Shown: positions 19,513-48,068 of the stretch, piece by piece | Numbering within the stretch: the stretch's first letter is position 1 | Layout of the letters: each line of letters opens with the position of its first letter | Assembly: GCF_963678975.1 (NCBI RefSeq) | Contig: NC_089273.1 | Coordinates: 33,728,973 to 33,792,972, forward strand | Length of the DNA: 64,000 nt | Source of the DNA: Dysidea avara | Taxonomy: Eukaryota > Porifera > Demospongiae > Dictyoceratida > Dysideidae | Reading direction: 5' to 3' | Position numbers and translations under genes: made by a program | Notes under the pieces: model-generated | What the model was told of the DNA's origin: nothing | What the model saw: the letters and a program-made list of their open reading frames with translations, nothing else | Database searches by the model: none

Positions 19513-21392
19513 TTTTATTATTTATTTATTATTATTGATTAGCAAAACCCATTGGGTAATTCGCTAATGTACAAAAACAAAATTTTAGTGTCTATGCATT
19601 TTGCAAACGGTTTTTGAAAGTAAGTAAGTCTATATTGTCAAGATCTTCCATATCTAAATTGTTCCAGTCTGGTATTGATCTTGGTAAGAAAGAGTTACTA
19701 TATCGATTTGTTCTGGCATACAACTGTAATAGCTTCAAGGGATGGTTTGCCCTGGTACTTGTTGCAGGAGATAACACTGGCAGATACTGATTTGGAACAT
19801 AAATTAATTTGTTTACAAACTTAAACAACAGCATCAGACGTGCCTGTTTCCTACGATCTTCCAGTGTTGGCCATTTTAATTCCACTAACATTTCAGTTAT
19901 ACTGTCCCTATGATTCCTTCTCCAAGGTCTATTTAACACGAAACGTGCAGCACGATGTTGTATCATCTCTAACTTGTGAATGAGTGATTGTTGATGTGGA
20001 TCCCAGATAGAAGAGCAGTATTGAATAGATGGCAAGACGATCTGTTTATATGCATGTTCTTTTAAGTGAGGTGGACAATGGTGGAGAGTTCTTCGCAAAA
20101 ATCCCAGTAGACGATTAGCTTTATTGCACACTGAATTTATGTGAGGGGTCCATGACAACTTGTTATCTAAAAGTACTCCCAAATAGTGATGTCTCTCAAC
20201 AACTTCTAAGGGGATTTTGTACATTGTATAGGAGAACTCACTAGCAGAATGTAGTGTAAATATCTGCATGATGCAACATTTTGAAACATTAAATTCCATT
20301 TGCCAAATATCAGCCCATGTTGATAATGTGTCAAGATCACTTTGGAGTATCTTATGATCTTCGGGTGAGTAGATAGGACGATAAACTAAACAATCATCTG
20401 CAAAAAGTCTCAACTGACTGTGGATGTTAGTTACAATATCATTTATATATATCAGAAACAACACTGGACCGAGCACTGATCCTTGTGGTACACCTGATGT
20501 TACACTGCAAGGCGAAGACTGCCTACCATCAATGATTACTCTTTGTGTACGATTTGTAAGAAACGATTGTAGCCACTGTAACAATTCACCTCTTATACCA
20601 TAGAAATTCAGCTTGTGAGCTAGCCTAGCATGGGCAACTTTATCAAAAGCTTTTGCAAAATCTAAGATAGCCACATTAACCTGAACTTTGTTATCAACTG
20701 CTCTGGCAAAATCATCAACTGCAAGAAATAGCTGGGCTTCACATGATCGCTTTGATCTAAATCCATATTGTACATCAGTTAATATGTTGTTTGACTCGAG
20801 GTGTTTCATTATTTGACTAACTAAAATGTGTTCTAATGTTTTACAGACCAAAGATGTAAGAGACACTGGGCGATAGTTTCTGGGATCAGTCTTATCACCC
20901 TTCTTATATATTGGGGTTACATTAGCTTGTTTCCAGGAGTCAGGCACAGTGCCAATTCTTAATGATTGATTGAAGAGATGTGTCAGTAGAGGAGCTATTT
21001 CAGAAGCAACTTGTTTCAAAAATGCAGCATGTATGTTGTCAGGACCCGGGGATTTAGTTGTATCGCACTCAGCAAGAAGGTTTCTCACACCATTTAGTGT
21101 AATGTGAATGTCTGGGATGGGTGGATAGGGAGAATTACCCCTATCTGGAATACAACTAGTGTCCTCGGAGGTAAATACAGATTTAAACTGGTTGTTTAGG
21201 ATCTCTGCTTTCTCTAGTGGGTCAGTAATTATATTCTCTGCTTGGTCCTTTAAGGCGCCAATTTCGATATTGTCTTGACGTTTACTTTTAATATAATGCC
21301 AAAAACGTTTCATTTTGTTATTACCAGATTCAGGGTTTGAAATATTAGATAGATATTGATTGTGCTGCTGACGCATCATGCATTTAGTTATT
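19513..21392 (-). mobile_element. 5'-truncated LINE, CR1/L2-like clade, with target-site duplication
   Basis: The element reads right to left. Its 3' end (19513 onward) is an A/T-rich ATTTATT-type tail next to a small hairpin (AACCCATTGGGT), shared with the LINE at 29.1 kb. The 12-bp flanks GGTAGGTTAATG (19501-19512) and GGTCGGTTAATG (21393-21404) are a target-site duplication with one mismatch, and the pre-insertion sequence is known from other foldback copies. The endonuclease region and any ORF1 are missing, as expected of 5' truncation during target-primed reverse transcription. Confidence 0.9.
19592..21379 (-). CDS. Non-LTR reverse transcriptase, N-terminally truncated ORF2
   Basis: A 595-codon frame without internal stops. 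Visible motifs in order: SPGPD (110-114), NYRPVSLT (168-175), the catalytic motif A in ILDFAKAFD (238-246), SGVPQGS (295-301), the catalytic FADD (326-329), then the thumb and a C-terminal region with LEMIQHRAARFV (470-481). These are the standard landmarks of a LINE reverse transcriptase of the Jockey superfamily. The usual endonuclease domain, ~220 residues, is absent because the insert is 5'-truncated; the frame runs on into the boundary upstream of the first ATG, so that ATG is not the native start. The intact core suggests a fairly young insertion. It lies alone, with no promoter of its own, so it is probably not expressed as a functional element. Confidence 0.93.
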   Translation of the reverse strand: MMRQQHNQYLSNISNPESGNNKMKRFWHYIKSKRQDNIEIGALKDQAENIITDPLEKAEILNNQFKSVFTSEDTSCIPDRGNSPYPPIPDIHITLNGVRNLLAECDTTKSPGPDNIHAAFLKQVASEIAPLLTHLFNQSLRIGTVPDSWKQANVTPIYKKGDKTDPRNYRPVSLTSLVCKTLEHILVSQIMKHLESNNILTDVQYGFRSKRSCEAQLFLAVDDFARAVDNKVQVNVAILDFAKAFDKVAHARLAHKLNFYGIRGELLQWLQSFLTNRTQRVIIDGRQSSPCSVTSGVPQGSVLGPVLFLIYINDIVTNIHSQLRLFADDCLVYRPIYSPEDHKILQSDLDTLSTWADIWQMEFNVSKCCIMQIFTLHSASEFSYTMYKIPLEVVERHHYLGVLLDNKLSWTPHINSVCNKANRLLGFLRRTLHHCPPHLKEHAYKQIVLPSIQYCSSIWDPHQQSLIHKLEMIQHRAARFVLNRPWRRNHRDSITEMLVELKWPTLEDRRKQARLMLLFKFVNKLIYVPNQYLPVLSPATSTRANHPLKLLQLYARTNRYSNSFLPRSIPDWNNLDMEDLDNIDLLTFKNRLQNA

Positions 21393-21400
21393 GGTCGGTT

Positions 21401-21520
21401 AATGGCTGTGATGGTAGGTTAAGGTTAATGTTAATGGCTGTGATGGTAGGTTAAGGTTAATGTTAATGGCTGTGATGGTAGGTTAATGTTAATGGCTGTG
21501 ATGGTAGGTTAAGGTTAATG
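21401..21520. repeat. Tandem repeat of the foldback arm next to the LINE
   Basis: Four units of AATGGCTGTGATGGTAGGTT with GGTTAATG spacers, at 21401, 21433, 21465 and 21491 (periods 32, 32, 26). They begin inside the right target duplication of the LINE, so they could be a by-product of the insertion or of slippage in the arm. Confidence 0.85.
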
Positions 21521-29403: not shown

Positions 29404-31884
29404 TTACAAAGTAGGAGTAGTTGATTGTTTAAATGTTTCAAGATCAATGGTAGATAGATTAGGGATACATAGATCGTTCCAATGGGGAATAGTTCTGGGT
29501 AGGAATGAATAGAGATACGTGTTTACTGAAGACTGTATATGATTAAATTTCTGATCATGATGGGCTCTGGTAGCAGTTTGATTTAATGATGGCAGACAGC
29601 GATTTGGGACCAATAATAAATGATTAACTATCTTGTACAATAGGATGAGGCGTGCTTGCTTTCTGCGTTCTTGTAAAGATGGCCAATTTAGTTCATTTAA
29701 CATGTCTGTGATACTGTCACGGTGGTGTCTGTTCCAAGGCTTATTTAAGACGAAACGAGCAGCTCGATGTTGAATCATTTCAAGTTTAGAAATGTCATTT
29801 TGGTGGTGTGGGTCCCAGATGGCACAACAATATTCGATAGATGGTAGCAGAAATTGTTTGTAGGCATATTCTTTGAAGTGTTTATGACAGGAATGTAAAT
29901 TTCGCTTTAGGAAACCAAGTAATCGATTTGCTTTGTTGCATATGTAGTCAATGTGATCGTGCCATGAAAGTTTATTGTTCAAGTAAACTCCAAGATATTT
30001 AATCTTTTCTACTGATTTCAAGGGCACTCCATTCATTTGATATGTAAATGTTTTGGTGGTATGGTGTGTGGTAACTTGTAAGATGTTGCATTTAGATACA
30101 TTAAAGTCCATCTGCCATTCATTTGCCCATTTTATAAGAGTAGTTAAGTCATCCTGCAGAATCTTCTGATCACTTGGTGAGTGTATAGGCCTATAAATTA
30201 AAATGTCATCTGCAAACAGTCGCAACTCACTATGTATGTTTGTAGTTATGTCGTTGATATATATTAGGAAAAGGGCAGGTCCAAGAACTGAGCCTTGGGG
30301 GACACCAGATGTTATGTCACAAGATATGGAATAACGGCCTTCTATTACTACTTGCTGTGTTCTGTTGTGTAGAAATGATTCAAACCATTCCAGCAAACTT
30401 CCTCTCACTCCATAATACTCCAGTTTGTTTAGAAGTCGAGCATGTGCAACCTTGTCAAAGGCCTTGGAGAAGTCTAGTACTGCCAAATCTACCTGTAGTT
30501 TATTGTTTATTGCTTTGGCTATATCATTGACAGTCACAAGCAGTTGTGATTCACAGGAGTGATGTTCTCTGAAGCCGAATTGATTTTCTGTTAAGATGTT
30601 GGTTGACTCTAGATGTTTCATTAATTGGCTGACAATGATGTGCTCCATGGTTTTGCAGATTACTGAAGTTAGTGATATTGGACGGTAGTTTTTGGGATCT
30701 GATTTGTCTCCTTTTTTATAAACTGGTGTGACATATGCATGCTTCCATTGAGTTGGTAATCTACTGTAGCTGAGAGACTGTTGGAAGATGTGGGTAAGCA
30801 TAGGTGATATCTCTGCTGCTGTGGCTCTTAGGGCATAAGGGTGTAACTTGTCAGGACCTGGAGATTTGTTTGAATTACCTTCATTTAGTATATTGTAAAC
30901 TCCTTGTGTGGTAATCTCAAAATGTGGCATAGATGGATACGGAGAATTGGACTTAGAAGGAAAGTTATCAAATTGTTCTGTGGTAAATGTAGATTTAAAA
31001 TGTTCATTTAAGATATTTGCTTTATCTATTGACTCTGTTATAGCTTCACCATCAGGACCTTTTAAGGTAGTAATTCCTGTAATATCTTGTTGTTTAGCTT
31101 TAATATATCTCCAGAACAATTTGTTATCGTTTGAGGATGAAATAATGTTAGTAATATAAGCCCTGTGCTTATGTCTTAACATTTGACGTACTTTACGTTG
31201 TAAATCTTTGTATTCTGACCAATCTGAGTCTCGCTTGTGACGTTTAGCCCTCTTATATACTCGTTTCTTTTTTCTTATTAGGCGTGTGAGTTCGGCTGTC
31301 ATCCAGGGCAGACGAGTATTTTTACGTAGTGTTTTGAAAGGGACATGATCATCTATAATGCTTTGGAAGTTTTCTTGAAAAAAGGACCAGTTTTCATCAA
31401 CAGTTCTGACTGAGGTGCTGTTTAAATTAAAATATTCAAGTGACAGATCAGATAGTCTACTTCGTATTATGTCCCAGTTTGCTTTTTTGTAAAGAGGTAC
31501 TCTGTGTGGCTCTTGCTTTTGTTGATAAAATGAGACAGATAGACTGACCAATATGGCATCGTGGTCACTAAAGCCAGGTATGGAGTTACAAGTGGAGATG
31601 ATATTAGGGTGAGATGTAAAACACAGGTCTAGGATGTTTATGCCACGGGTTGGAAAGTTGACAATCTGGTTGAGATGAAAGTCTTGTAAAAATGTTAGAA
31701 GTTTTTCTCGGAGTAATCTAGATGTGTATGACTCTGCTGATAAGAAACCATGTTCCCAGTCTATTTCAGGACAATTGAAATCACCTCCAATAATAATCTT
31801 GGTGTGAGGATGTTTCTCCTTGATTTCACTAAAATTTTGCACTAAATCATCAAATACTGTCATAAAATAAACTGGTTTTGGCAA
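29404..31884 (-). CDS. LINE ORF2: endonuclease C-terminal part plus reverse transcriptase
   Basis: An 826-codon uninterrupted frame. Residues 31-43 (IIGGDFNCPEIDW) and 106-111 (SDHDAI) are the late catalytic motifs of an APE-type endonuclease/exonuclease/phosphatase domain; the first ~110 residues of that domain are missing. Reverse transcriptase motifs follow: SPGPD (341-345), NYRPISLT (399-406), LDFSKAFD with motif A (470-477), SGVPQGS (526-532) and the catalytic FADD (557-560). The C-terminal thumb and tail match the 19.5 kb protein residue by residue over long stretches. The given start codon is TTG and the frame opens from a stop only nine codons upstream, so it is a truncation edge and not a true start. 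The function in an intact element is target nicking and target-primed cDNA synthesis. This copy should be immobile on its own. CR1/L2-like is my best clade guess. Confidence 0.93.
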   Translation of the reverse strand: MPKPVYFMTVFDDLVQNFSEIKEKHPHTKIIIGGDFNCPEIDWEHGFLSAESYTSRLLREKLLTFLQDFHLNQIVNFPTRGINILDLCFTSHPNIISTCNSIPGFSDHDAILVSLSVSFYQQKQEPHRVPLYKKANWDIIRSRLSDLSLEYFNLNSTSVRTVDENWSFFQENFQSIIDDHVPFKTLRKNTRLPWMTAELTRLIRKKKRVYKRAKRHKRDSDWSEYKDLQRKVRQMLRHKHRAYITNIISSSNDNKLFWRYIKAKQQDITGITTLKGPDGEAITESIDKANILNEHFKSTFTTEQFDNFPSKSNSPYPSMPHFEITTQGVYNILNEGNSNKSPGPDKLHPYALRATAAEISPMLTHIFQQSLSYSRLPTQWKHAYVTPVYKKGDKSDPKNYRPISLTSVICKTMEHIIVSQLMKHLESTNILTENQFGFREHHSCESQLLVTVNDIAKAINNKLQVDLAVLDFSKAFDKVAHARLLNKLEYYGVRGSLLEWFESFLHNRTQQVVIEGRYSISCDITSGVPQGSVLGPALFLIYINDITTNIHSELRLFADDILIYRPIHSPSDQKILQDDLTTLIKWANEWQMDFNVSKCNILQVTTHHTTKTFTYQMNGVPLKSVEKIKYLGVYLNNKLSWHDHIDYICNKANRLLGFLKRNLHSCHKHFKEYAYKQFLLPSIEYCCAIWDPHHQNDISKLEMIQHRAARFVLNKPWNRHHRDSITDMLNELNWPSLQERRKQARLILLYKIVNHLLLVPNRCLPSLNQTATRAHHDQKFNHIQSSVNTYLYSFLPRTIPHWNDLCIPNLSTIDLETFKQSTTPTL

Positions 31885-31911
31885 AGAAGATACTTGAAAA
31901 TTTGTGAGTTA

Positions 31912-40834: not shown

Positions 40835-41457
40835 ACACTAAATCCATCTCTATAGCCAGTTAGATCAGCATGCTTCTTACCTTTTTTTAAGGCCGAATAA
40901 TGCAGCCACCCCTTTAAAAGGCAAGGTTAGAAAATTTTGTCCCTACGGCCTGAATAATGACCAGTTTTCACTGTACTATTAGTGATTAGTGATCATGGGG
41001 GATTATTTATTAAGATACTAAGATATACAAACGCTACAACCTCTAAATATAGCAGTAAATTTTTTACCCTGGTCCAATGTCTCGTAATAATCGTGACTTC
41101 GTGAGAGACTCTACTGTGACAAATACATGTTTATCATGATATGTGCTAATCGCCTTTTTACAATTAAGTTTTACAACATGTATAGTTAAACTCACCAATT
41201 GCGACTAAATCCCTTCAACACGAAAAGACAAGTAATGAGACAACCTTGGAGACAACAACCACACAAGCCTATTCTGGTGCGTTTATTTAGTAGTAATATA
41301 AATTTTAAAGGCGTTTATTTACAACAGGACATAATTACGCGCCCCTCTATTGTCTCTGTACATACTTGCCTTATCTTTACTATTCTCACAAGATCTCTTG
41401 GCAGGGGCGTAGCGAGGGGCGTAGCTTCTTCACTTGAATTAGTCAATGCTTGAAGTA
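40835..41457. other. Non-coding stretch with MITE end fragments
   Basis: CAGTTTTCACTGTACT near 40965 resembles one end of the TA-flanked MITE family and CAGGGGCGTAGCGAGG near 41403 a hAT-MITE end. No gene. Confidence 0.45.
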
Positions 41458-41640
41458 GATTGAGATACTCTAATAGAACAGTCACATTTCTACAAGTACC
41501 ATATTTTTATTTTGTAAAGTCTGTAAGTAGCTAGTAATTTAAACTATACAATCCGATGCTAAGCAGAAGTTGTAACTATGCTAAATATTGATTGCTGTGT
41601 TACAGCTGTTTTGTGACTGCTCTAATAGAGTATCTTGATC
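41458..41640. mobile_element. MITE bounded by the CTCTAATAGA motif
   Basis: The 29-bp ends (41458-41486 and 41612-41640) are inverted: GAGATACTCTAATAGAACAG and CTGCTCTAATAGAGTATCTT. This shows that the motif scattered over the window can act as a terminal inverted repeat. 183 bp, non-coding. Confidence 0.7.
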
Positions 41641-42195
41641 GTTTCAATGCAGTACAAGATGAAAGGCAAAGTATTGTTAAGGGTTTACTAGTTAAAATGG
41701 GTGTTAGTTGACTGCAGTTGCATGCCACTAACAGGGCCGTCCAGAGAAATTAGAGGGCCCAGGGAAAAGAGTTAAAGAGGGGCCCAGGGGCAAGGAAGGG
41801 TCTAGATCCTGACTGCTCTATTAGAGTATATCGATCTTTCTTTATACAGGTATTCAAGTGGCCCCTTTCGGGCTGTGGTAGGGGGCAAAATACCCCAATT
41901 ACCCCAATGTGGGCGGCCCTGGCCACTAAAATTACAGTTATATTTTAATATTCTGTCACTGTAATCTGGGGTTTCTGTCAAAACCATGGAAACTCACCTA
42001 CTGTTATCAACAGTGCATTGCTTATTCTAACAAAAAAAGTATTGAAATCCCATCCAAAAACAGCTTATAGCTGTAAAAAAAGTGCGCGTCCAAGTAAAGC
42101 AGAGTTAACTGCGACAAAAAATAATGATATCATAATGCGGCCATGTGCGAGGTGTGCAAGTTGTAAAATTAACATTAGCTAATCAGATAATACAA

Positions 42196-42513
42196 TCTAA
42201 TCCAAAACAGCCAAGCTGTAAAAAGAGTGTGCGGCCCTCAGAAAGGCTATGGTGAAAAAAGATGTGAAATCCAAGGTGGCGGCCAAGAAATGGCTGTGAT
42301 GGTAGGTTAATGGTAAAAATTTTAATAATGACAATTCAGGCAAATTTTGTGAAGCGGCACAAAATTCACCTGAATTGTCGTTATTAAAATTTTTACCATT
42401 AACCTACCATCACAGCCATTTCTTGGCCGCCACCTTGGATTTCACATCTTTTTTCACCATAGCCTTTCTGAGGGCCGCACACTTTTTTTACAGCTTGGCT
42501 GTTTTGGATTAGA
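42196..42513. mobile_element. Foldback element copy F5
   Basis: Complete palindrome of ~318 bp (TCTAATCC to GGATTAGA) with a loop around 42350. It forms the left end of the composite element. Confidence 0.88.
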
Positions 42514-42782
42514 TTTCATTTCTTTTTGTATTTGTATACCCCAAAGCCGGCCTATGGCCAGCTTTGGGAATTATTTAACCTATGTTTTTTTTTCTTTACT
42601 ACAGGAAGACGAAAAGATGAAGTAGATGTACTTTAAATATTTTATCAGTAAATGTACAAATTATATATATAATACATATGTGATCGGATTTGCGAAAAGG
42701 GGTCTTCCACACACATCCAATTTACCAACTTTGACAATTGATAACTTCAGATTGGAAAGAGCTATTGCCTTGAAATTTGGAC

Positions 42783-45700
42783 AGTGGTGATTTCTTTGCA
42801 GCTGAACTCTCTACATGATAGTTTCTTTGTAGCTGAACTCTCTACAAGGTAATTTCTTCTAGCTGATCTCTCTACAGGGAGATTTTTTGTAGCTGAACTA
42901 TCTACAAGGTAACTTCTTCTAGCTGATCTCTCTACAGGGTGATTTGTTTGTAGCTGAATTCTTTACAGGTGATTTGTTTGCAGCTGAGCTCTTTACAGAA
43001 TGGTTTCTTTGTAGCTGAACTCTCTACAAAGTAACTTCTTCTAACTGATCTTTCTACAGGGTGATTTGTTTGTAGCTGAACTATCTACAAAGTAACTTCT
43101 TCTAGCTGATCTCTCTACAGGAAGATTTGTTTGTAGCTGAACTCTCTACAGGTGATTTGTATGTAGCTGAATTCTGTACAGGTGATTTGTTTGTAGCTGA
43201 ATTCTGTACAAGTGGTTTCTTTGTAGCTGAACTCTCTAAAAGGTAACTTCTTCTAACTGATCTTTCTACAGGGCAATTTGTTTCTGGCAGAATTTTCTAC
43301 AGGGTGATTTCTTTGCAGCTGAACTCTCTACATGATGGTTTCTTTGTAGCTGAACACTCTACAAGGTAAAATTTCTTCTAACTGATCTCTCTACAGGGTG
43401 ATTTGTTTGTAGCTGAACTATCTACAAGGTAACTTCTTCTAGCTGATCTCTCTACAGGATGATTTGTTCGTAGCTGAATTCTGTACAGGTGATCTGTTTG
43501 CAGCTGAGCTCTTTACAGAATGGTTTCTTTGTAGCTGAACTCTCTACAAGGTAACTTTTCTAGCTGATGTTTCTACAAGGTAGCTAGTTTGTAGCTGAAC
43601 TCTCTACATGGTGGTTTCTTTGTAACAGAACTTTCTACAAGGTGACTTCTTCTAGCTGATCTTTCAATAGGGTGATTTGTTTGTAGCTTCACTCTCTACA
43701 AGGTAACTTCTTCTAGCTGATCTCTCTAGAGGGAGATTTGTTTGTAACTGAACTTTCTAAATGATGGTTTCTTTGTAGCTGAACTCTCTACAAGTTAACT
43801 TCTTCTAGCTGATCTCTCTGCAGGGTGATTTGTTTGTAGCTGAATTCTGTACAGGTGATTTGTTTGCAGCTGAGCTCTTTACAGAATGGTTTCTTTGTAG
43901 CTGAACTCTCTACAAGGTAACTTCTTCTAACTGATCTTTCTACGGGGCAATTTGTTTCTGGCAGAATTTTCTACAGGGTGATTTCTTTGCAGCTGAACTC
44001 TCTACATGGTGTTTTCTTTGTAGCTGAACTCTCTACAAGGTAACTTCTTCTAGCTGATCTCTCTACAGGGAGATTTGTTTGTAGCTGAACTCTCTACAGG
44101 TGATTTGTTTGAAGCTGAACTCTCTAAATGATGGTTTCTTTGTAGCTGAACTCTCTACAAGTTAACTTCTTCTAGCTGATCTCTCTACATGGTGATTTGT
44201 TTGTAGCTGAACTATCTACAAGGTAACTTCTTCTAACTGATCTTTCTACAGGGCAATTTGTTCGTGGCAGAATTTTATACAGGGTGATTTCTTTGCAGCT
44301 GAACTCTCTACATGGTGGTTTCTTTGTTGCTGAACTCTCTACAAGGTAACTTCTTCTAGCTGATCTCTCTACAGGGTGATTTGTTTGTAGCTGAACGATC
44401 TACAAGGTAACTTCTTCTAGCTGATCTCTCTACAGGGAGATTTTTTTGTAGCTGAACTCTCTACAGGTGATTTGTTTGAAGCTGAACTCTCTAAAATGAT
44501 GGTTTCTTTGTAGCTGAACTCTCTACAAGTTAACTTCTTCTAGCTGATCTCTCTACATGGTGATTTGTTTGTAGCTGAACTATCTACAAGGTAACTTCTT
44601 CTAACTGATCTTTCTACAGGGCAATTTGTTCGTGGCAGAATTTTATACAGGGTGATTTCTTTGCAGCTGAACTCTCTACATGGTGGTTTCTTTGTTGCTG
44701 AACTCTCTACAAGGTAACTTCTTCTAGCTGATCTCTCTACAGGGTGATTTGTTTGTAGCTGAACGATCTACAAGGTAACTTCTTCTAGCTGATCTCTCTA
44801 CAGGGAGATTTTTTTGTAGCTGAACTCTCTATAGGTGATTTGTTTGAAGCTGAACTCTCTAAATGATGGTTTCTTTGTAGCTGAACTCTCTACAAGTTAA
44901 CTTCTTCTAGCTGATCTCTCTACATGGTGATTTGTTTGTAGCTGAATTCTGTATAGGTGATTTGTTGCAGCTGAGCTCTTTAAATAATAGTTTCTTTGTA
45001 GCTGAACTCTCTCAGGGTAACTTCTTCTAGCTGATGTCTTTACAGGGTCACTAGTTTGTAGCTGAATTCTCTACATGGTGGTTTCTTTGTAACTGAACTC
45101 TCTACAAGGTAACTTTTTTTAGCTCATCTTTCTACAGGGTGATTTATTTGTAGCTGAATTCTGTACAGGTGGTTTGTTTGCAACTGAGCTCTTTAAAGAA
45201 TGGTTTCATTGTAGCTGAACTCTCTACAAGGTAACTTCTTCTAGCTGATGTCTCTACAATGTCACTAGTTTGTAGTTGAGCTCTCTACATGGTGGTTCTT
45301 TTGTAACTGAACTCTCTACAAGGTGACCTCTTCTAGCTGATCTTTCTACAGGGTGATTTGTTTGAAGCTGAACTCTCTACAAGGTAACTTCTTCTAGCTG
45401 ATCTCTCTACAGGTAGATTTGTTTGTAGCTGAACTCTCTACATGATGGTTTCTTTGTAGTTGAACTCTCTCAAGGTAACTTCTTCTAGCTGATGTCTTTA
45501 CAGGGTCACTAGTTTGTAGCTGAATTCTCTACATGGTGGTTTCTTTGTAACTGAACTCTCTACAAGGTAACTTTTTCTAGCTCATCTTTCTACAGGGTGA
45601 TTTATTTGTAGCTGAATTCTGTACAGGTGGTTTGTTTGCAGCTAAGCTCTTTAAAGAATGGTTTCTTTGTAGCTGAACTCTCTACAAGGTAACTTCTTCT

Positions 45701-46870
45701 AGCTGATGTCTCGACAAGGTCACTAGTTTGTAGCTGAGCTCTCTACATGGTGGTTATTTTGTAACTGAACTCTCTACAAGGTGACCTCTTCTAGCTGATC
45801 TTTCTACAGGGTGATTTTTTTGAAGCTGAACTCTCTACAAGGTAACTTCTTCTAGCTGATCTCTCTACAGGGAGATTTGTTTGTAGCTGAACTCTCTATA
45901 AGGTGATTTGTTTGTAGTTGATCTCTCTGCAGGTTGATTTGTTTTAGCTGAACTCTCTACAGGCTGATTTGTTTGTAGCCGATCTCTCTACAGGGCAATT
46001 TGTTTGTAGCTGATCTCTCTACAGGGTGATTTTTTGTAGCTGACCTCTCTTCAGGGTGATTTGTTTCTAGCTGATCTCTCTACAGGGTGATTTTTTGTAG
46101 CTGACCTCTCTTCAGGGTGATTTGTTTCTAGCTGATTGCTCTACAGGTTGATTTGCTTGTAGATGAACTCTCTACAAGGTAATTTGCTTGTAGCTGAACT
46201 CCTTACTTTGTGTCTAGTTTGTAGCTGATCTCTCTACAGGGTGATTTGTTTGTAGCTGAACTCCTTACATTGTGTGTAGTTTCTAGCTGATCTCTCTACA
46301 GGGTGATTTGTTTGTAGCTGATCTGTCTACAAGTTGATTTGTGTGTATATAGATGATCTCTCTGCAGGTTGATTTGTTTTAGCTGAACTCTCTACAGGGT
46401 GATTGCTTGTAGCTGAACTCCTTACATTGTGTCTAGTTTCTAGCTGATGTCTCTACAGGGTGATTTTTGTAGCTGAACTCTCTTCAGGGTGATTCGTTTC
46501 TAGCTGATCTCTCTACAGGTAGATTTGTGTTGATTTGTTCATTGCTGATCGCTCTAAAGGTAATTGATTTGTTGCAGTTGAACACCCTGCAAAGTGATTT
46601 GTTTGTAGCTGATCACTCTAAAGGGTAATTTGTTTGTAGCTGAACTCTCTCCACAGTGACTTGTGTGTAGCAGAATTCTGTGTAACTGAATTCTCTAGAG
46701 AGTGACTTAATTGTAGCTGAATTCTCTACACAGTGCATGACTTGTTTATAGCTGAACTTTCTTCAGTGTGACTTGTAATGTTCTGAATCTCTATAGTGGT
46801 ATATTTGCTTAACTCTCCACATGGTGACTGTCTTCTTGCTGAACTGTCTATAAGATTAACTGTTTGCAGC
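42783..46870 (+). repeat. Satellite array S4 with higher-order repeats
   Basis: About 4.1 kb, ~134 monomers of 30-31 bp. Higher-order units are visible: a ~367-bp block (12 monomers) is repeated with few differences at 44181, 44549 and the start of a third at 44916, and a ~455-bp block (15 monomers) at about 45012 and 45466. These recent local duplications show the array is still homogenising. The last ~200 bp are degenerate monomers leading into the end module. Confidence 0.92.
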
Positions 46871-47587
46871 TGAACTCCCTACAGAATAACTTGTGATGTA
46901 ATAAAATTCTATAATGGAGTAAATAAATTCGCCGAATGCTCTATTAGGGTGACTGTTCTATTAGAGTATATCGATCTTGCATTTGCTACATGGAGTTGGC
47001 TTTCGAATCATAACTCAGTGGTTTGTAATCCGATTCTTCTGTACTACTGCAAGGACTTTCTATGAAGATTATTCCAGCTATACACCGATTTTCAGCTCAT
47101 TGCTCTAAGCGGTTTGCCTAGTAGGCGTGAAAACTAATACTTTTTTATTCATAAAAATCGATCGCGTAATTGTGACACAGGTTGGGTTTTGTGTCATATC
47201 TCCGTGGTCTTTATCTCGATTCCTTTCAAACCACCAAAAGGCACTCCTACGATGGTTACTGCATCTACATAGCAATTTTCAACTCATTCCATGAAGCGGT
47301 TTACCCTGTAGGCGTGACAACAAATCGATCTTGTTTTACGCGAATAATCGGTCATAACTCCTGAACCATTCATCGGATTTGTACCAAAGTTGATGCTAGG
47401 ATTCGCCTTTGGACTCCCTTTCTGTGTGCCAAATTTCAATGCGATCGGAGTACGCGTTTGCTTGTTATAGCAATTTTTGCAAGTGTGCGAAAAGACGTAG
47501 AAGAAGAAAAAACAACGAAACTTTGTCTTGATCACGGTGTGGCGCGCCGGCTTCTTGGGCCGCACGACACACTACCGTGTGTCTTGA
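46871..47587 (+). repeat. Conserved end module of the composite element
   Basis: Starts with ATAATGGAGTAAATAAATT, then GACTGTTCTATTAGAGTATA, then two degenerate ~190-bp direct units each ending GGTTTRCC..GTAGGCGTG, then the terminal GGCTTCTTGGGCCGCAC and hairpin. Compared with 50746-51553 it lacks ~150 bp near 47530. A 60-codon ORF (47182-47364) occurs in both copies but is not clearly coding. Confidence 0.85.
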
Positions 47588-48068
47588 TGTTATTGTTAAA
47601 GTGTTAATGAGAACTATGCGATGCTGCTAGTTTTTAAGTGTGTGAGCATCTTCATAAATGCCACATAAGTTTAATTCTCAATAAAGCAATGTGTATAGAT
47701 TCTCTGATAGTAATAAATAGTTTGAGTTTGGCCGCCTTTCCTGTATACAGCAATGCTACGTGTAAAGGAAAGGTGGCCAAACTCAAACTATTTATTACTA
47801 TCAGAGAATCTATACACATTGCTTTATTGAGAATTAAACTTATGTGATTTTATGAAGATGCGCACACACTTAAAAACTAGCAGCATCACATAGTTCTCAT
47901 TAACACTTTGACAATAACATCGTATTATCTGATTAGCTAATATTAATTTTACAACTTGCACACCTCGCACATGGCTGCATTATGATATCATTACTTTTTG
48001 TCGTAGTTAACTCTGCTTTACTTGGACGCGCACTTTTTTTACAGCTATAAGCTGTTTTTGGATGGGAT

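Follow-up and report, generated by a model that had tools for sequence, protein, structure and literature searches.

Element A, a 5,392-bp mobile element carrying a satellite array, is located in a 64,000-nucleotide stretch of the genome of the sponge Dysidea avara (contig NC_089273.1, positions 33,728,973 to 33,792,972, forward strand), here called the window, and is probably (at roughly 85 %) a non-autonomous rolling-circle transposon of the Helitron superfamily. The marks of this superfamily are insertion between A and T without duplication, a constant 5′ TC and a hairpin terminus at the 3′ end. Element A has fixed ends, inserts at A|T with no duplication at the resolved sites, has a unit structure and a high copy number, prefers particular targets and re-uses the same site. 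The family helps explain the spread of the satellite through the host genome; since its ends are known to the base, its copies run into the thousands and the intact empty sites into the hundreds, this dispersal is traceable insertion by insertion.

Ends and architecture of element A

Element A interrupts a palindrome of about 630 bp, termed FB2, which appears as three inverted repeats (42047-42201/47914-48068, 95 %; 47586-47658/47849-47921, 96 %; 47662-47748/47760-47846, 97 %) between 42047 and 48068 and is interrupted from 42196 to 47587 by the insert. The sequence is TAATACGATGTTATTG in the mirror arm, which has no insert, and TAATACAA|...|TGTTATTG in the arm that carries it. Comparison of both arms places an A at the left and a T at the right of the insert, and a target duplication is absent. 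The original prediction had set the insert at 42196-47587 in one palindrome arm with the opposite arm as the empty site, which is right to the base, and its TC start, its end of stem-loop and TTGA and its duplication-free position between A and T agree with the intact arm. The element starts with TCTAATCC and ends with GACACACTACCGTGTGTC-TTGA; the boundaries A|TC...TTGA|T and the one-base shift |ATC...CTTG|AT fit the sequence equally. Following the flanking A, the order is TCTAATCC, the 318-bp palindrome, the post-palindrome segment, satellite, end module, GGGCCGCAC, hairpin and TTGA, followed by the flanking T:

42196-47587, + strand: whole mobile element (element A), 5,392 bp; both junctions compared with the intact palindrome arm, same end-to-end layout at other loci
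42196-42513, + strand: 5′ palindrome, arms at about 42196-42351 and 42358-42513, starting TCTAATCC and ending GGATTAGA; inverted-repeat search and genome-wide matches of the arm ends
42207-42219, + strand: small 5′ hairpin ACAGC-CAA-GCTGT near the terminus; weak DNA fold, z −1.1, not significant
42229-42237, + strand: 5′ subterminal inverted repeat GTGCGGCCC, nucleotides 34-42 of element A; comparison of the ends
42514-42780, + strand: conserved post-palindrome segment; matches in several of the loci L061-L068
42781-46679, + strand: satellite array, period 30-31 / 61 bp, 3.9 kb; Tandem Repeats Finder (TRF)
46881-47526, + strand: conserved end module, modA (46881-47176) and modB (47177-47526); copies elsewhere in the window, loci L061-L068 and sampled hairpin ends
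47526-47531, + strand: extra TCTTGA directly 5′ of TCACGG; comparison with two other window copies
47557-47565, + strand: 3′ subterminal inverted repeat GGGCCGCAC, directly 5′ of the hairpin; mirrors GTGCGGCCC
47566-47583, + strand: terminal hairpin GACACAC-TACC-GTGTGTC; DNA fold, z −2.8 for 47550-47587
47584-47587, + strand: 3′ terminus TTGA, then T; genome-wide counts of 3′ ends
42047-42195, − strand: host, one FB2 palindrome arm on the body side of a minus-strand element; inverted repeats and body alignment
47588-48067, − strand: host, FB2 palindrome centre and other arm with the empty site at the mirror position; inverted repeats and intact arm

The 5′ palindrome corresponds to the inverted repeat 42189-42351/42358-42520 (96 %). 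In the segment behind it, the block 42676-42778 is common to other repeats. The satellite, expected inside the element with a length of about 4.1 kb, was found there by TRF with 3.9 kb, with a period of 31 up to 46526 and of 61 up to 46679. The subterminal inverted repeat is 9 nt long, with 33 nt between it and the 5′ end of the element and 22 nt between it and the 3′ end; GGGCCGCAC was exact in 24 of 30 sampled 3′ ends, and beyond the 9 nt the two ends of element A are not inverted copies of each other. The distance from the hairpin to the terminus is 4 nt, or 8 nt in a longer alternative fold, and DNA folds of the 3′ end gave z values of −2.6 to −3.2 (three stretches, two window copies).

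The end module recurs elsewhere in the window. Two other window copies possess a segment (‘mid’) of about 150-165 bp 5′ of the hairpin module, which is missing in the copy of element A. At 47525-47532 GTCTTGA|T adjoins the TCACGG of the hairpin module, as if an internal end had been used, and from this arrangement the TCTTGA at 47526-47531 may be the scar of an internal loss or of an early end. A short palindrome-like motif, CTCTAATAGAGTATATCGATC, recurs with variants through the window (41457-41485, 41612-41640, 41810-41838, 46949-46977), also within the end module of element A.

The foldback around the insert, FB2, is itself the 5′ end (TCCCATCC...) of a second repeat family on the minus strand, with its body leftward from 42046. 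Among the copies at L010-L030 this body shows 93-98 % identity leftward from 42046, reaching about 40829 or farther; in several copies the stretch exceeds 1 kb. In the window the family spans from 48067 leftward to below 40000; the first T of TCCCATCC seems to be absent in some copies, and the 3′ end of the family was not found. For the intact empty site GATAATACRATGTTATTG the genome search gave 841 exact matches, with at most two in each palindrome (reversed control 2). A separate insertion forming the inner part of the FB2 palindrome is unsupported, since the fused form GATAATACRATYGTATTATC has no exact match. About 69 terminal bases of the 5′ palindromes of FB2 and element A are 78 % alike, with no similarity found beyond. 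At least two families that otherwise differ thus share a terminal motif and start with a long, nearly perfect palindrome.

Copy number, linkage and re-used target sites

The searched assembly comprises 550.8 Mb in 108 contigs. The exact 22-nt 3′ end, hairpin plus TTGA, has 6,289 matches (reversed control 0) and is followed by T in 6,201 of them; of the first 30 copies, 29 continue with T, and their flanking sequences otherwise look unrelated. With TTGA left unrequired, 5,528 matches were obtained in all, and TTGA was present at 57 of the 59 hairpin ends printed, in line with the earlier statement that the end falls outside the CTRR rule. A 20-nt pattern for the 5′ arm (first base not C, plus TCTAATCCAAAACAG) gave 11,501 exact matches (control 0). 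Among the first 100 of these, 51 have outer-type flanks and 49 the internal flank, and A precedes TCTAATCC in all 100, as expected for a constant left end. Extrapolated from 51/100, there are roughly 5,900 palindromes with an exact outer arm. As a rough extrapolation, 6,289 copies at an average of about 4.2 kb between paired ends amount to a family total of about 26 Mb, near 5 % of the genome.

Pairing of the ends was sampled with 50 exact 3′ ends on contig C1 below 4.56 Mb, for which palindrome arms (outer or inner) were located by exact match within 9 kb. An exact 5′ arm lies 2.1-6.4 kb upstream in the same orientation in 26 of the 50, compared with 2 upstream in opposite orientation and 4 and 3 downstream. 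Of 30 sampled 3′ ends, 26 have at least three satellite motifs upstream on their own strand; upstream on the other strand this holds for 0, and downstream for 0 on the same and 1 on the opposite strand. The segments modB, modA and mid were found upstream of 29, 25 and 24 of the 30, respectively. Adjacent palindrome-arm pairs, drawn from 100 listed exact matches, always combine one outer with one inner arm (34/34), and the inner arm always faces the same internal sequence; a palindrome moving alone, a point raised together with the original prediction, was seen in 0/34. Judged by this linkage, the element moves as a unit that includes satellite, palindrome and end modules.

The 48 distinct outer flanks have A at −1 without exception (48/48), are strongly A/T from −9 to −2 and show T at −2 with a frequency of 0.67. 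In leave-one-out scoring against the A|T sites of the window, 31 of the 48 rank among the best 5 %. The site that element A occupies in the palindrome reaches the top 2.9 % with the common allele GATAATACAA and the top 19 % with the GATAATACGA allele; because of this high target score the repeated use of the FB2 A|T site is at least partly explained by sequence. The FB2 palindrome also holds higher-scoring A|T sites. Both junctions are located at the same FB2 A|T and in the same orientation at five loci (the window, L063, L064, L066 and L067). For L061 and L062 this applies to the right junction only, and in L065 and L068 the right junction lies 3 and 13 bp from the common site. The loci L061-L068 were retrieved by a query holding this junction and are uninformative on the hit frequency at other palindrome sites.

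The identical position and orientation at five loci would also be expected if one nested insertion had been copied along with its host palindrome, the repeated junction being a single event. The opposite orientation was found in none of 45 left-junction matches, a search which diverged hosts would escape, and this points the same way; a search with the other junction, for the rarer allele only and equally blind to diverged hosts, gave four exact same-orientation junctions and two other matches and is hardly a test of orientation. For most of the five loci, however, a single duplicated insertion is rejected on the identities and the use of both mirror arms, and as a general explanation it is very improbable. 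Window and L067 are 87.0 % identical in the host but 98.1-99.1 % in the insert, and L064 and L066 are 93.6 % identical in the host but 98.1 % in the insert. The window copy sits in the arm adjoining the host body and the copies of L063, L064 and L066 in the mirror arm; at L067 the FB2-family body was found on neither side, so that its arm is not assigned. Since the inserts of these two pairs are more alike than their hosts and the site is occupied in either arm, at least several of the same-site insertions are independent. L063 and L064 (host 92.3 %, insert 87.8-92.0 %) could share one event. Target duplication was assessed at the resolved empty sites, all in the FB2 palindrome family, and was found at none of them, as originally expected.

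Head-to-tail joints of the form TTGA|TCTAATCC occur 87 times as exact matches genome-wide (control 0), with about 0.4 expected under random A|T insertion (an estimate using 10,707 A|T sites per 64 kb). In the joined pair of L065, modB is 79 % identical to that of the window in the upstream element and 97 % in the other; the joined elements differ in subfamily, and the pair is a second insertion at one site and not a rolling-circle concatemer. That one A|T was hit repeatedly agrees with the notion that a site remains usable after insertion without duplication. Two elements of the family are also joined head-to-tail in the window at 1635/1636 on the minus strand, as TTGA|TCTAATCC with zero bases between them.

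Relation to Helitrons and Helentrons and possible mechanism

Element A shares with canonical Helitrons the 5′ TC next to A, the 3′ end next to T and the lack of duplication at the FB2-palindrome sites, but ends without CTRR and possesses a 9-nt subterminal inverted repeat, whereas terminal inverted repeats are absent from the canonical type. In canonical Helitrons the hairpin is located about 10 nt from the 3′ end, in element A 4 nt or, in the alternative fold, 8 nt. With Helentrons and their non-autonomous forms (HINEs) it has in common subterminal inverted repeats at both ends and a 3′ palindrome, although the repeat is shorter and differently spaced than described; instead of a T-rich or TT target there is A before and T after the insert, with A/T-rich sequence upstream. 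The TTGA end and the 5′ palindrome of about 320 bp fit neither group. The resemblance to non-autonomous Helitron- or Helentron-type elements with tandem repeats, suggested earlier from the window alone, is supported, and the mixture of defining traits tests where the border between both groups lies.

In the oyster Crassostrea gigas the spread of satellite arrays by non-autonomous Helentrons, Cg_HINE, is established (PMC7492417). Cg_HINE resembles element A as a non-autonomous rolling-circle type with central satellite, subterminal inverted repeats, 3′ palindrome and no duplication; it differs in preferring TT/T-rich targets, in containing a microsatellite and in a 5′ inverted repeat that is merely short (PMC7492417), where element A has an A|T target, the TTGA end and the 5′ palindrome. 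Canonical Helitrons such as Helraiser likewise join a 5′ TC to A and their 3′ end to T and have a 3′ hairpin, but they end in CTRR, lack inverted repeats and, in Helraiser, carry the hairpin 11 nt upstream (PMC4778049). The hairpin of Helraiser was shown to act as terminator, and without it the element can end at CTTG next to T (PMC4778049). Subterminal repeats and a 3′ palindrome are described for HINEs and Helentrons, though in mite HINEs the inverted repeat has 12-15 nt at 2-4 and 38-60 nt and the target is TT; proto-Helentron-Pi combines mixed traits with A|T insertion, but has 5′ TT and 3′ CTAG (PMC4067079). FoHeli1/2 of Fusarium oxysporum resemble element A in starting with TC, in a 3′ end that is not CTRR, in asymmetric terminal inverted repeats and in hairpins at either end, as well as in self-insertion and multiple 5′ termini; they differ in 3′ ATTTT and a TNAT target, and no long palindrome or satellite is mentioned in the available text (PMC5148889). 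Satellite spread by such elements (oyster) and non-canonical ends (Fusarium) are already known. Element A differs from them in combining a Helitron-type target and 5′ TC with a Helentron-type subterminal repeat, TTGA and a long 5′ palindrome, which measures about 320 bp here and 630 bp in the FB2 family. In the literature searched, mostly outside subscription journals, neither a description of element A nor a paper joining Helitron, TTGA and hairpin was found.

As a rolling-circle transposon, element A would be cut at its 5′ TC end by a Rep/helicase made elsewhere, and one strand would be peeled off from the 5′ end onward until the 3′ hairpin/TTGA end stopped the strand transfer. The strand would be joined between A and T of an AT-rich target without duplication of the latter. 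Because satellite, palindrome and end modules travel as a unit, every insertion brings along a further satellite array. On the left flank the motif keeps its A|T after insertion, so that the site is open to another hit and head-to-tail neighbours can arise. The enzyme, the rolling circle, the hairpin as terminator and a role of the palindrome are inferred.

Several points weigh against this assignment. The 3′ end is TTGA and not CTRR, and no circle or transposition event was seen. Within 9 kb, 24 of the 50 sampled 3′ ends have no exact 5′ arm, which is explained in part by exact-only matching, and empty sites were resolved in one host family only. Helitron-type Rep genes are present in the genome, with 150 scored PF14214 matches (of 230 candidates), dozens of them in open frames of more than 500 aa, and a helicase search gave 136 matches. 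Rep sequence was read at four loci (L070 with its 5′ flank L074, L071, L072 and L073), lower-similarity groups such as C5:35198439 being left out, and a Rep/helicase copy with the ends of element A, which the original prediction had suggested looking for, was found at none of the four. L071 and L072, scanned for hairpins followed by CTRR-T or TTGA-T and read without empty-site comparison, carry a hairpin and then CTAG|T downstream of the gene. L074 has TCTATATAATAATTCTG starts and, by eye, a GCGC...GCGC hairpin ending CTAG|T. L073, which encodes OTU and helicase domains, shows no matching hairpin in the 8 kb read. Two autonomous Helitron families of this genome, L070/L074 and L071/L072, appear to end in a hairpin and CTAG|T. 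No similarity of the ends of element A to L070-L074 was found beyond the block in the post-palindrome segment.

Within the Helitron superfamily, element A could be a HINE like the oyster Cg_HINE, moved by a Helentron Rep/helicase/endonuclease. The subterminal inverted repeat, the 3′ palindrome and the central tandem repeats are as described for such elements (PMC4067079, PMC7492417), and OTU-bearing Rep/helicase genes are represented by at least one locus of the genome; the A|T instead of TT insertion and the spacing of the repeat, unlike that of mite HINEs, leave this placement a real possibility at rather less than even odds. It is rather unlikely that element A belongs, as an end-variant, to the canonical Helitrons of this genome and uses their CTAG-type enzyme in trans. 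The 5′ TC and A|T target agree with it, both autonomous families with a readable 3′ end look canonical, and Helraiser lacking its hairpin shows that CTTG next to T can serve as an end (PMC4778049). In element A, however, TTGA is near-invariant although the hairpin is intact, and no likeness of its ends to L070-L074 was found outside the post-palindrome block.

It is a tentative and rather unlikely proposal that element A represents a distinct rolling-circle group which has a Rep and an end code (A|TC...TTGA|T) of its own and uses the long palindrome as 5′ origin. In such a group the palindrome would offer the same start site on both strands, a hairpin read by Rep could form and a two-way origin could allow initiation on either strand; the long palindromic 5′ end in any case raises a question about the rolling-circle origin. 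Foldback or MITE (miniature inverted-repeat transposable element) DNA transposons make a target-site duplication. A cut-and-paste element of this kind with a satellite would account for the long palindrome at one end, but not for the empty sites free of duplication or for ends that mirror each other over 9 nt only, and is extremely improbable. The assignment of element A as a non-autonomous rolling-circle transposon is preferred.

Further Rep/helicase loci and reverse transcriptase frames

L070 and L074 (G000:C8:36673101-36675100 and 36677200-36685199) represent a recent-looking canonical Helitron with an open frame of 1,613 aa. Its helicase has five further places of 97-98 % identity, and the locus is surrounded by repeated copies of its own 5′ and 3′ parts. 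At G000:C2:50136029-50137458 and comparable positions about 100 bp separate a PF14214 Rep match from the helicase C-terminal match behind it, while in long open-frame Rep genes such as C8:4053183 about 1.9 kb lie between both matches; the short-spaced arrangement is perhaps a deleted but amplified gene. In the window, two long open frames for reverse transcriptases of the non-LTR (long terminal repeat) type are located on the minus strand at 29404-31908 and 19592-21418 (PF00078; the first also PF14529).

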